The notes under the pieces: model-generated
What the model saw: the letters and a program-made list of their open reading frames with translations, nothing else
Database searches by the model: none
What the model was told of the DNA's origin: nothing
In this document: positions 22,587 through 52,672 of the stretch, in pieces
How positions within the stretch are numbered: the first letter of the stretch is position 1
Layout of the letters: every line of letters begins with the position of its first letter
Assembly (NCBI GenBank): GCA_009869945.1
Contig: WIXG01000153.1
Coordinates: 110,127 to 174,126 of the forward strand
Length of the DNA stretch: 64,000 bases
Source of the DNA: Mesaphorura yosii
Lineage: Eukaryota; Arthropoda; Collembola; Poduromorpha; Tullbergiidae
Reading direction: 5' to 3'
Made by a program: the position numbers and the translations under genes

Positions 22587-23185
22587 TTAAGCTTGTTGGA
22601 AAAGCTGATCTATCTTAGGTTGCTTGCTTGTGGTTGGCTTCGACTCTGCATCATCTTCCTCTTCCGTCTCTTGAACATTAAACCAAGTCGGAATTTTAGG
22701 CTCTCGATTCATGTGAAGGCATAGATAATACTTCAGTTGTCCCTGTTATGAGTAAGGTTGCAGCCGGGAATGCAGAACAGAGGATGATTGCATTTTGCAG
22801 CCGAAAAACATTCTAGTGGCATAGAATGAGTTCGAGCTGCGATTTCCTCAATTCTCCAATTAATCATTTCAAGTCTGATCTTCCACTTCTTGTACCTGTC
22901 ATGATATTGCACATTCAAGTTATAGTTGATTGGATTACATTCCCATCTCAAGTCTTATGACTAACTTAATATTTGATTTACTTACGAAGGATTCTGCCGG
23001 CATTTTTCATTCAGCTCCTCCTTTAGTTCTGGGAAATGTCTTCTAATGTGCCTAACCACGGAGTGCTGATGTTTAACAACAGCTTCACATTTTACACCGT
23101 TCGTGATCACTTGACAATGAAACAAACCAGTCCCTACATCATGTGTGTAGTATTGCCTAAGATTTCCGCCTTTACACCCGGACAT
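22587..23185 (-). CDS. Zinc-finger-like nested-family gene A, probably frameshifted
   Basis: Exon 1 is 23185-22986 and exon 2 starts at 22895 after a 90-bp intron (donor TTC/GTAAGT, acceptor ACAG). As it stands the frame ends at TGA 22733-22735 (120 aa). The N-terminal unit reads GTGLFHCQVITNGVKCEAVV followed by KHQHSVVRHIRRHF, giving Cys-x8-Cys-x7-His-x4-His, an unusual zinc-finger-like spacing. The C-terminal unit reads AKCNHPLFCIPGCNLTHN. The related gene at 50585-51780 continues past that point, and here the matching continuation (YYLCLHMNREPKIPTWF, ending at TAA 22587) sits in the next frame, so one base appears lost in a G-run near 22740. It lies just downstream of CASK on the same strand. 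Function unknown. Confidence 0.55.
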
Positions 23186-23365
23186 TTTCTCCAATTTGTA
23201 GTTAATTGTTAGTAAATACTAAAATTTTTGCCCTGACTTCAATGAAGGTTGAGACTGAAACGGGTTAAGAAGAAAAGAAACTCAGAATGGAGAATAGAAT
23301 GCAGTCAAATGAACGAAGTTCAAATTTCTCTCTTCTGTGTAAACGTAAACTTGTTTGCCGTGTGT

Positions 23366-50300: not shown

Positions 50301-52672
50301 TGAAAAACCCAAAAAATTGATGTGTTTTGCATAGAAACTTATTCGCAGTACTTCTCCTTGTAGATTTATGAAGAACTTTCATATAAGGTAAGGCTCAACA
50401 TATTTTTAAAAATGAGAAATGAAAGTCGTTAGTTCAAACACTATTCTTCGCGCATAAAGTTAAGCGAAGAAAAAAACAGAACTTTGTTTTCACTGTTAAA
50501 AAAATGAACACGAGAAAGGTAAGTTGGACTTAACTAATTTATGTGCGCAGTGTTTTTAATTATCCCTCACTAACTGAAGTTACCATGGCAGACAGTGGTA
50601 AGTGAGTATTATCTAATTGCCTATCTTTCTTAATTATGTGCGTATTATCTATTTTACTTAGTTGTTATCCGTGTCGGCGAACATTATCGGTACAATGCTA
50701 TCTCTGGATTGTACGAGTGCTTGATCACAGAAAATTCCATCAAATGTAAGAAAACCAATGCAAATCGAGGTCACATGTACCAACATGTGAAATATTTCCT
50801 GCGAAGAACGAAGCATTTAACAAAAAAAGTCGGGAGCTTCCTCGGTAAGTAAACACTTCATCTATTAACTATCGGATCGGATCAGATATGGAAAACCATG
50901 CCCGATCCCAGGTCTACTATTAACCCCATCACATGCTAAACTGCGTTGTTTCCTGTTGCAGGGACCAGGAGCGCTTGAATCAGTCAAAAGTCAGCAGCAA
51001 GGAAAACAACCTGAGTCTTCAGCTGAAGGACCGTCGACGAAATCTCCAAACTCCGCTCAACTTTAACTCTCAAGAACAGGGACCACTCCCTGTGGAAGTT
51101 GAGGACGGAGTTGAAAGAAAGATTTCCAAGTTATGATGTCAAATTCAAGTGTTTACTCCTACAAAAGAACTGTGTATTTCTTGCTCATGCTGCCAGAGAA
51201 GGCGATCAACAACGTTTGGGATTTTTTAAAGTTCATTTGGTTAAAGTGAGTACAAGCTCCCAGTTTACGTCGGGAAAAACCGACATTTCAGACCTAACGA
51301 CAGACACAGCACTGACAAGTCTACTGTGGTCTCCTACTGCAGTATTAACAACTTGGTTCCTGTCTGCGTTCACAAGATCTGTTTCGACCACCACGAGGAA
51401 GATGAACATAATGTTAGAGAGCAGGAGCTCCGTGAATGTTGGTTTCAAATCTTTCTGAACTATCTGCCAAATTTCGAGCCTAAAAGACGAGTGTCATTCG
51501 AACTTGTTAATGAAAAGATTGAAAAAAAAACGCTGCTCGAAGAAACAAGATGAGTGTTGAAGATTTCACAATTGCAAAGTCAGCAGCGAAACGAAATTTA
51601 CCACTGTTCTGCGTTCCTGGCTGTAATGTCACCCAAAACAAGGGGAACCTGCCTTATTATCCGTGCATTCACCTCACCGAGCCACCGACAACTTTACCTG
51701 GATTCGAAGCAAAACTCAACGCGTTGATTGGCAAATTGGACAATGAACAGAAGCCGAATAAGTCCTCAACTAGCAAATAGATGAAGATGGATGATTTCGT
51801 AACTACGCGCAAGTAACTTCCTTTCCGAAATACTTGTAAATGTTGCTTAAAATGATCCGGGCATATTTCATCCTGTTAACACCACTAAGTAATAAACTCT
51901 GTTAAATTCCACTTACCGCCAAGTTTGACCGGAGCAGAATTCTCCTTGCTTGCAAGAAGGACACAGTGTGGTTTTATGTCACGGTGAATAATGTCATTAT
52001 CGTGGCAATAGCGAATAGCTAAAAAGAAAGATGACAACATGAACCAATAAGTCCCTGCAAGTTCATTACATTTGATAGTGCTTGGTGTATTTACCTTGCA
52101 GGACTTGTCTCATGTAATGACTAGCAACTGCTTCACTGTAGGTGAATCCAGCGTTCACTCTTGACACAATTTCGAAGCACAAATCCATTCCGTCCATGCT
52201 AATTAAAACAAAATAGATGTCATTGCGCATCTGACATTGACACGATCATCATTCCCAATGTAGCATCTTGGTGTGACTTACAATTCAAACACCATGTAAA
52301 GGAGTCCATCTGAGGAATAAGTTTCAAGGAGTTCGACAATGTGAGGATGCTTTAGCATATGGCAAGTTGTGGCCTCTCTTTTAAGATCTTCCGTCGAAAA
52401 TCCCGGGCTTGAAGTGAAACGGGCGACATCCACAATTTTCACAGCAAATTGACATCCAGCCTGGCGATGGATACATCTTCGGACAACGCTGTATGGGCCT
52501 CTAAAATGTGAGGCATTCAAAACTTCATCACATAATTTTATTCATTAATAATTTTGTAGGTGAGTCGGACTTCACTGAAGTTGAAGCGAAAATCCTCTCG
52601 CAATTCGACTTACTTTCCAATGACTTCGCACAGGGCGTAAACATCGTCGAAGAGAACTTCTTCATCGGCCAT
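23373..52672 (-). CDS. CASK: Peripheral plasma membrane protein CASK (camguk/Lin-2)
   Basis: 22 coding exons on the minus strand: 52672-52614, 52500-52282, 52198-52095, 52018-51917, 50299-50179, 49839-49596, 49529-49355, 49291-48996, 34826-34778, 34703-34550, 34118-33968, 33584-33516, 31684-31597, 29612-29572, 29472-29394, 29268-28963, 28063-28025, 25537-25358, 24790-24728, 24606-24535, 23669-23629, 23552-23373 (2832 nt, 943 aa; human 926). CASK is a synaptic and epithelial scaffold binding neurexin, syndecan, Mint1 and Veli. In order: CaMK-like domain (about 1-275), two L27 domains in exons 7-8, PDZ, SH3, a hook with [15 protein letters not shown], and guanylate kinase from about 755 to the end ([11 protein letters not shown]). 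Introns range from under 100 bp to 14.2 kb. Confidence 0.98.
24111..24172 (+). pseudogene. Short acidic-Ser fragment related to the nested family
   Basis: In a CASK intron, the plus strand reads an ATG followed by [16 protein letters not shown] up to a GT. A similar start, KRK followed by Asp/Ser-rich sequence ([16 protein letters not shown]), begins the GIY-YIG relic at 25838. It is probably a detached 5' fragment of the same kind. The evidence is compositional similarity only. Confidence 0.25.
25046..25351 (+). CDS. Intact small nested ORF, paralogue of the 30-kb relic N-terminus
   Basis: A 101-aa uninterrupted frame on the plus strand inside a CASK intron. It begins with ATG in a fair context (ACCATGG) and ends with TAA at 25349-25351, seven bases before CASK exon 25358-25537. 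The second half, [20 protein letters not shown] then [13 protein letters not shown], aligns with [20 protein letters not shown] then [12 protein letters not shown] of the relic at 29901-31439, so the reading frame is not random. The rest is polar and probably disordered. No domain or function recognised. Its transcript would have to run antisense into the CASK exon. Confidence 0.5.
26150..26215. repeat. GC-rich hairpin-containing patch
   Basis: A sharp GC-rich island in AT-rich intron sequence: CTCCGGCTGCGCCGGA can fold on itself (CCGGC/GCCGG), followed by GCGCTCGCTTCGCTCACGCG and CCTAACCTAA. Such patches are often terminal parts of short transposable elements. Without other copies in the window this is only a suggestion. 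Confidence 0.3.
27386..27431. mobile_element. 46-bp inverted-repeat insertion with 8-bp target duplication
   Basis: The insert starts CACAGAATTAATA and ends with its exact reverse complement TATTAATTCTGTG (13-bp inverted repeats, CA...TG ends). It is flanked on both sides by the same 8 bp, GTCATAAT (27378-27385 and 27432-27439). Eight-bp duplications are characteristic of hAT superfamily transposases. It sits inside the GIY-YIG frame of copy 1. It may be a highly deleted MITE. Confidence 0.6.
29901..31439 (+). pseudogene. GIY-YIG nuclease-like nested gene, decayed (copy 2)
   Basis: A plus-strand relic within a CASK intron. The first block (from ATG 29901) reads to TGA near 30303, then continues in the same frame ([20 protein letters not shown]) to a donor near 30386. 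A block from about 30448 ([20 protein letters not shown]) ends in TAA. After a frame change, THE segment [18 protein letters not shown] leads to donor 30797/30798 and acceptor 30873. The last exon (30874-31439) has an in-frame TGA at 30933-30935, then an open frame of about 168 codons with GVVYILHC (GIY-like), YAIHVGSS (YIG-like), HWRVANHM (Arg), PRPLEDKF (Glu) and GGLNGING (Asn), in the order of a GIY-YIG domain. Two in-frame stops and a frameshift suggest a pseudogene, though the last 400 bp are fully open. Confidence 0.55.
31440..33515. other. CASK intronic sequence around the SH3 start exon
   Basis: Apart from the CASK exon 31597-31684 (minus strand, [11 protein letters not shown]), this stretch shows no supported gene, repeat or RNA. 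Short open frames here lack any recognisable feature. Confidence 0.5.
44566..44585. repeat. GGACA pentanucleotide microsatellite
   Basis: Four perfect tandem units of GGACA in CASK intron 8. Confidence 0.85.
46307..46702 (-). CDS. His/Pro/Gln-rich open exon in CASK intron 8, candidate alternative first exon
   Basis: A 131-codon open frame on the CASK strand. It starts with [20 protein letters not shown], continues with [18 protein letters not shown], and then a low-complexity His/Pro/Gln stretch ([20 protein letters not shown]). The aromatic and proline-rich start looks like real protein rather than chance, and the His/Gln repeats are typical of arthropod regulatory proteins. Being on the sense strand between the two CASK halves, it may encode an alternative N-terminus for a short PDZ-SH3-GK isoform, but I see no strong GT donor in frame, so it may instead be a separate small gene. 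The last third (after [13 protein letters not shown]) looks less protein-like. Not recognised otherwise. Confidence 0.35.
   Translation of the reverse strand: MHESMEYPEDSFYNPEYLDFIPPPCPIHNPNGAGLPNGFLPQQLAGVAGGGQLHQHPFPHQPQLHHHHHVHHPPPQQQQPFPHQHQANTFIARSGSRSLKGGHFLLCAKSINIFARDETRRKKKAAVVESR
47809..47823. repeat. CAG trinucleotide repeat
   Basis: Five CAG units in CASK intron 8, within a GC-richer patch with no supported gene. Confidence 0.7.
50585..51780 (+). pseudogene. Zinc-finger-like nested-family gene B, disrupted
   Basis: Opposite-strand gene within the CASK intron at 50300-51916. Exon 1 is 50585-50597 (ATGGCAGACAGTG), exon 2 is 50662-50844. It encodes a unit matching gene [21 protein letters not shown] then HMYQHVKYF (Cys-x8-Cys-x8-His-x3-His). 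Splicing to the next acceptor (50961) gives TGA after five codons. Further coding-like blocks follow in changing frames: [16 protein letters not shown] (about 51090), [18 protein letters not shown] (about 51370) and [20 protein letters not shown] in the frame 51550-51780, the last matching the C-terminal unit of gene A. Either several introns are missed or the gene is decayed; I favour decay with a residual 77-codon open frame at the 3' end. Confidence 0.45.

Follow-up and report, generated by a model that had tools for sequence, protein, structure and literature searches.

Decayed copies of three nuclease-like gene families in the introns of CASK and other genes of the springtail Mesaphorura yosii, some of them candidate introners

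The introns of the CASK gene of the springtail Mesaphorura yosii, together with the region just beyond the 3' end of that gene, contain a set of gene-like blocks. We interpret these as the decayed remains of elements that carried genes and belonged to three families, some of the elements at least having behaved as introners; we put the probability of this reading at roughly two in three. The blocks lie in a 64-kilobase (kb) stretch of contig WIXG01000153.1, C153:110127-174126, from a genome of 93 megabases (93 Mb). This whole stretch is referred to below as the window, and the families are denoted K, A/B and Y. The reading is backed in the sequence by the dispersal of the copies, their position within introns, the placing of the host 5' splice site exactly at the element end in one B subfamily, the tiny amounts of non-element sequence in three introns, the tracking of element length by intron length, and the absence of the intron from DNAH paralogs. 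Some of the host introns seem to have been created by insertion of the element, and the copies that lie antisense to their hosts can be read as introners bearing putative nuclease genes, comparable with the shintrons of viruses. The original prediction for this region overlooked the three-family structure, the near-coincidence of many copies with whole introns, and the newly made look of some of these introns.

Elements within the introns of CASK

CASK lies on the minus strand of the window, with kinase, PDZ, SH3 and guanylate kinase parts legible in open frames, and its splice map was derived from translated junctions within the window, where the G+C content is 38-47% in 2-kb steps. The kinase intron, 1617 nucleotides (nt) long (50300..51916, minus strand), consists almost entirely of the B element of the A/B family (about 50316..51916, plus strand), whose right end is the CASK 5' splice site according to alignments with loci L032 and L095. 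The coding pieces of B, located by profile matches, span 50670..51720 and comprise a zinc-finger-like unit (50670-50816), a GIY-YIG-like unit (51002-51376) and a PGC unit (51529-51720), with an AATAAA downstream at 51891-51896; the gene is broken, the family match passing through several reading frames and three stops. The SH3-domain intron (1984 nt, 29613..31596, minus strand), the splice junction of which is spanned by a match to Pfam SH3_2, is almost filled by K3 (30123..31436, plus strand). This copy has an exon 1 (30123-30380), an exon 2 (30443-30666) and a GIY-YIG exon (30936-31436), with profile matches down to 1e-80, and it is preceded on the same strand, at 29666..29684, by a 5' motif, TTGTTTGTTTGTAATAAAA, which copy comparison also places upstream of several other K copies.

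Two further blocks within CASK are both partial. K1, an exon 1 fragment carrying a KTPE block (25154..25345, plus strand, profile match 1e-15), ends at a CASK exon and lies in an intron of 567 nt (24791..25357, minus strand) with a translated junction. The Y relic (27145..27830, plus strand), which has a YIGK motif near 27.3 kb and was identified by its match to L091 (C153:137271-137378 and 137597-137953, alignment A5), shares an intron of 2487 nt (25538..28024, minus strand) with other sequence.

Intron length, element ends and splice sites

The length of the intron follows the length of the profile-matched element very closely: r is 0.994 for 13 antisense copies of K and A/B (among them L022, without an assigned host) and 0.996 for the nine that have CASK or homology support on both sides. 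Where both ends could be placed, most introns hardly exceed the copy that they contain. The coefficient is 0.989 when a sense copy is added, and 0.819 when the Y intron is added, the latter value preceding a small correction to L017. The introns of truncated copies are short (461, 567, 643 and 913 nt), and those of full copies measure 1.4-2.1 kb.

The ends of the element are defined most sharply by B and its closest relatives. B and L032 (on C406) are 75-84% identical in DNA from about 50446 to 51917 of the window, and their similarity stops at the host 5' splice site. When the terminal 137 bases of B served as the query, the matches were B itself, L032 and C8:110964-111077. The copy at this C8 locus, L095, is a B element from which most of the gene has been deleted; it has the same right end and adjoins an open exon at GTAAGTGGAATTTAACAGAG. 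Because this internally deleted copy shows the start of the element, the left end of B can be placed at about 50316, and therefore about 16 nt of the CASK intron are non-element sequence. Counted on the two sides of the element, this residue is about 16+0 nt for B in CASK, about 10+0 nt for L032, measured to a predicted acceptor, and about 13+13 nt in DNAH6, as judged by the ends common to L008 and L017. Similarity extending up to the 5' splice site, by which introners are recognized, is found in B, L032 and L095, with the host certain for CASK alone.

In both B and K3 an AATAAA lies about 20 nt before the donor, and these copies look as if the element had ended at its own poly(A) site. Candidate donors on the antisense strand are concentrated just past the stop. 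Among K and A/B loci, 42 had a clear coding end and sufficient flanking sequence; here antisense donors scoring at least 3.5 occur in 21 of the 84 windows that cover the 300 nt past the stop, compared with 1 of 84 for sense donors, and farther out the antisense donors number 1-4 of 42 per window (windows of 150 nt; both the score and the windows were set by us).

Host genes, orientation and proposed intron gain

Thirteen copies with a supported host lie antisense in an intron. Four are in CASK (K1, Y, K3 and B; window translation, with Pfam for one), and Pfam identifies the hosts of L003 (LIM), L013 (IRF2BP) and L044 (spectrin). Homology identifies those of L014 (alpha-actinin, joined exons 1e-29), L017 (DNAH6 on C193, 2e-42), L038 (GNL2, 6e-59) and L011 (Rab1, with joined exons open to the C-terminal GCC). 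For L018 (an Ig protein, below the Pfam cut-off) and L023 (RPB1), exon support is confined to one side. A fourteenth antisense copy, L032, lies in a predicted gene that is tentatively TMEM68-like and has no Pfam or NCBIfam match.

The joined exons of DNAH6, GNL2 and alpha-actinin match their homologs unbroken across the junction, as do those of IRF2BP, spectrin, LIM and SH3 in Pfam, so that the predicted splicing would restore conserved host proteins. Automatic joining of exons found no junction for L007 and misplaced those of L011, L023, L032 and L053. Its choices are used for L003, L018, L038 and L044, and homology backs them across the junction for all but L018.

Host paralogs give hints about the age of an intron relative to its element. 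The DNAH6 junction falls at residue 90/91, and all five DNAH paralog matches in the genome (5/5) run through it with no room for an intron. For L007, a copy in a myosin heavy chain gene, the myosin-like gene C756 runs unbroken through the site, and the paralog C171 has a match break of about 66 nt near it, because of which the L007 intron is probably older than the copy within it. From these two cases we propose intron gain for some of the antisense copies and an older intron for L007.

Three gene families across the genome

A whole-genome search for further copies, which the original prediction had called for, found at least 74 K matches, merged to about 50 places (50 in the merged set), at least 23 A/B matches in one search and at least 52 in another, which together reduce to 33 places, weak ones included, and at least 24 Y matches at 22 places. 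The copies are dispersed over many contigs, and local duplication within CASK, the origin first proposed for the blocks, does not describe this distribution. Members of the three families do cluster, with 13 pairs within 10 kb, whereas 2000 random placements gave 1.2 pairs on average and never as many as 13, and with 10 pairs still present outside contig C153; two places entered this test because they had already been seen, which inflates the result somewhat. In L026 (C512) and L090 (C60), an A/B-like gene is followed on the same strand by K coding pieces, 0.6 and about 1.2 kb apart respectively, perhaps as a composite element. Matches to the left ends of the elements also occur outside the protein lists, for B at C116:12623-12707 and for K at C236:6826-6925 and C248:113980-114042, and these are possible gene-less derivatives.

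The K protein is encoded in three exons, of which the first is acidic and bears the KTPE block and the last is GIY-YIG-like; they are parted by apparent GT-AG introns in the two copies read (L007 and L005) and similarly spaced in others. Most of the listed K copies are partial or contain stops, and five (L004, L015, L021, L023 and L029) have the 3' part only. Upstream, a conserved 5' region contains CGCTGATTGGCTG and TTGTTTGTTTGTAATTAAA, with 74-85% identity between copies (window position 29666, L008, L017, L019, L022, L027 and others), sequences which resemble CCAAT-box and forkhead motifs. Among the 40 K pairs listed the lowest synonymous divergence (dS) is 0.65, and the median ratio of nonsynonymous to synonymous differences (pN/pS) over 227 pairs is 0.45; from these values K appears to be of considerable age and to have been transmitted by way of functional genes.

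In A/B proteins a zinc-finger-like N-terminus is followed by a VYF...YVGK domain and a PGC unit. At 9 of 25 loci (in L038 past a stop) they end in a Q-x-x-[ILMV]-x-x-[FL] motif, which we take to be like the PIP box, the PCNA-binding consensus. The other loci have degenerate forms of this tail, with none seen in six, and L041 has the tail motif in another frame. In L033, the metagenome protein P0001 and B, the open frame stops just before the position of the PIP-box-like stretch, and a degenerate form of the stretch is still legible past the stop in L033 and B (TAA and TAG). Y proteins show the pattern GxVY...YIGK...R...H, and open Y frames occur, for example, on C39 and C44.

L033 has an open frame of 352 amino acids, to which P0001 is 86% identical, and a second metagenome protein, P0002, is 63% identical to L008 of family K; from these two proteins, relatives of A/B and K exist elsewhere. 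The uninterrupted A/B frame of L033 (1462-2517) contains a 27-nt insert that P0001 lacks, and it is perhaps a retrocopy. Protein searches gave no relative when the query was a single K sequence; the K profile yielded one metagenome protein, as did an A/B query. Among candidate viral relatives of K, 13 pattern matches were checked without a single confirmation (0/13), and a PHROGs search returned five weak families with one member each.

The last of the blocks, gene A (L047; 22587..23185, minus strand), is an A/B relic on the CASK strand just 3' of the CASK stop, with zinc-finger-like (23006-23164) and PGC (22623-22885) units and a PIP-box-like C-terminus, KQPKIDQLF; the profile of the A/B middle domain has no match in it. 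Profile searches at expectation values (E) of up to 0.05 detected no A/B or K units elsewhere in the window. The proposed homology of A and B is borne out by blastp among the blocks (5e-11 for the PGCN unit, 4e-5 for the Cys/His unit) and by a DNA match at 1e-6, and the statement that most blocks are antisense to CASK holds for K1, Y, K3 and B, with A on the CASK strand past the stop codon. A second set, supposed to share KTPE and/or GIY-YIG motifs, held together in part: the block at 25.0 kb is linked to that at 30.2 kb by the KTPE block (7e-6), but the block at 25.8-27.8 kb is not K, its 27.15-27.83 kb part being the Y relic of a third family and its 25.87-26.16 kb part having no relative except a short repeat at its end. 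The two sets were also thought to be mutually related; they resolve instead into three families without kinship detectable by hhalign, and one common family for all blocks is not supported (P 0.38 for A/B against K, 0.066 for A/B against Y, and 0.24 for Y against K).

The short repeat, which terminates the 25873-26200 stretch of the CASK Y intron, has five further occurrences (four of which match at 74-86% over 21-27 residues) and is followed by GC-rich inverted-repeat-like sequence, perhaps another element. A Lys/Arg/Gly-rich open frame occupies 20060-20596 on the plus strand of the window.

Putative nuclease nature of the encoded proteins

The GIY-YIG motifs first noted among the blocks correspond at 30.9-31.4 kb to a real but weak signal of the K family. 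With E allowed up to 1, PF01541 matches half of the members compared (8 of 16, the best at 2.2e-4), and it matches 5 of 10 trimmed members, with the scores shown in full falling below the Pfam cut-off; the open reading frame in the window has no Pfam match when taken alone. In alignment A4, Y38 is invariant and G56 and R64 nearly so, the position of the YIG tyrosine reads H, and the positions of the catalytic Glu and Asn were judged by eye with reference to I-TevI. A genome search with the PF01541 family gave no match, K has no PDB match of note, and a Foldseek check with the K model found nothing at E <= 0.001. Pfam gives weak support to a GIY-YIG nuclease identity of K. In the other two families only motifs point to a nuclease, namely VYF...YVGK in A/B and GxVY...YIGK in Y, and the zinc-finger-like N-terminus of A/B matches PF00096 at 0.012 in one member. 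The suggestions that the blocks are nested genes, that they are of mobile origin and that a GIY-YIG nuclease was involved are each supported, to differing degrees.

Discussion

A bolder account of these elements can be offered tentatively, with a confidence that falls just short of even: they would be autonomous introners of an animal, three families of nuclease genes whose products cut into coding exons, where the element inserts itself antisense and is at once a complete spliceosomal intron, one family having a PCNA-binding tail. On the main reading, a full element is built around a nuclease-like gene, which in K and A/B has apparent introns; K adds a conserved 5' motif region, and several copies have a poly(A) signal close to the end. 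After antisense insertion into a coding exon, the 3' end of the element (...CCACTTAC on the gene strand of B) would, when read on the host strand, form a 5' splice site (GTAAGTGG...), with the 3' splice site at or just past the other end, so that the host transcript could remove the copy at little cost to the host. It is inferred within this main reading that insertion would have created the introns in general, the encoded proteins would cut DNA and drive the spread, the copies with truncated 5' and fixed 3' ends may come from copying that proceeds from one side, either by target-primed reverse transcription or by one-ended break repair, and the PIP-box-like tail of A/B may bring the protein to PCNA.

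Several observations weigh against the main reading. Exact coincidence of element end and splice site is seen in one B subfamily only; the end shared by the K copies L008 and L017 equals the inferred donor in L008 but is 13 nt off the donor of L017, and the host acceptor tried for the C8 copy gives a frame that does not fit. The CASK Y intron contains much non-element sequence, a difference of 1801 nt. No target-site duplication was recognized by eye, and no inverted repeats were found in the A/B loci by antisense DNA similarity within and between loci at E 1e-3. Hosts are assigned for 16 of 62 copies (fetched loci plus those in the window), of which L007 and L004, in an EGF protein gene, lie in sense orientation, and the break in the myosin paralog C171 belongs here as well. 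The A/B and Y proteins tested give no PF01541 match and no PDB match of note, and both structure models are poor, with a mean predicted local distance difference test score (pLDDT) of 60.6 for K and 39.0 for A/B.

The mode of copying is addressed by a proposal that is compatible with the account above and that we consider rather unlikely, namely that K is related to the endonuclease of Penelope-like retroelements and was spread by Penelope-type reverse transcription with retention of introns. The K Cys motif before the GIY-like stretch, together with FTC-T-NVVYMIHC--C, may resemble Penelope endonucleases, and K has, as stated, no PDB match of note. Penelope-like elements are not known to make introns. 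The apparent introns kept by K copies and the 3'-only copies of K fit this proposal. According to PMC3846280, Penelope elements are able to disperse intron-containing genes; they have in common with the present elements a GIY-YIG endonuclease (putative in K), intron retention on copying and 5'-truncated copies; unlike them, the present copies have no reverse transcriptase that was noticed beside them or in the open frames read, no dedicated search for one having been made.

The observed association with introns would also arise, in a model that we judge unlikely, if an old nuclease-encoding element had inserted into short pre-existing introns and exonic insertions had been purged, with the antisense excess reflecting the removal by selection of copies whose splice and poly(A) signals lie in sense. 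Elements within introns commonly show an antisense bias, the model likewise predicts that intron length equals element length plus a small constant, and L007 fits it, a paralog having a short break at nearly the same place. Against it, animal introns are usually longer than the residues seen here (about 10, 16 and 26 nt), the 5' splice site lies inside sequence common to three B copies at three places, and the five DNAH paralog matches lack the intron. A host family of nested nucleases acting in repair or defence, duplicated and now decaying, whose product played no role in the spread, would suit the purifying selection among K coding pieces, the lack of a very young K pair, the conserved 5' region, the PIP-box-like tail and the open L033 with its metagenome counterpart, but it is highly improbable, as dozens of dispersed, mostly broken and partly 5'-truncated copies with one internal deletion typify a mobile element and simple gene duplication would not put copies at intron ends.

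The reading of the antisense copies as introners with nuclease genes has its nearest parallel in mirusviruses, where, according to PMC12768974, GT-AG introns with endonuclease genes, including GIY-YIG genes, occur as spliceosomal homing introns, or shintrons, an association which the authors state had not been observed before. The resemblance lies in spliceosomal GT-AG introns that carry endonuclease genes, GIY-YIG among them, the nuclease nature of the present proteins being weakly supported for K and motif-level for A/B and Y; unlike the shintrons, which are viral and prefer certain target genes, the present copies are in many different animal nuclear genes, are mostly antisense where the host is known, and show signs that insertion made the intron. 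Introners, as portrayed in PMC9860276, likewise appear as introns of similar sequence in genes that are unrelated, the element providing part of the splice sites, but here a gene sits inside the intron-forming element. In the literature searched, PMC12768974 was the only work recognized as tying homing endonucleases to spliceosomal introns, and its subject is mirusviruses; nuclease-carrying introners in animals are described in none of the titles and abstract openings of that literature, which excludes preprints and most subscription journals.

The origin of introns and the enzymes that move intron-making elements are open questions, and intron-sized elements in conserved animal genes, with what appear to be nuclease genes of their own, would make the enzyme, its target preference and the splicing of fresh insertions directly testable. 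If the interpretation is true, these elements would be a cellular counterpart of the viral shintrons and would represent a mechanism of intron gain with the enzyme on board. They would extend the shintron idea from viruses to the animal nucleus, and would connect the way in which introns arise with parasites that cut genes.

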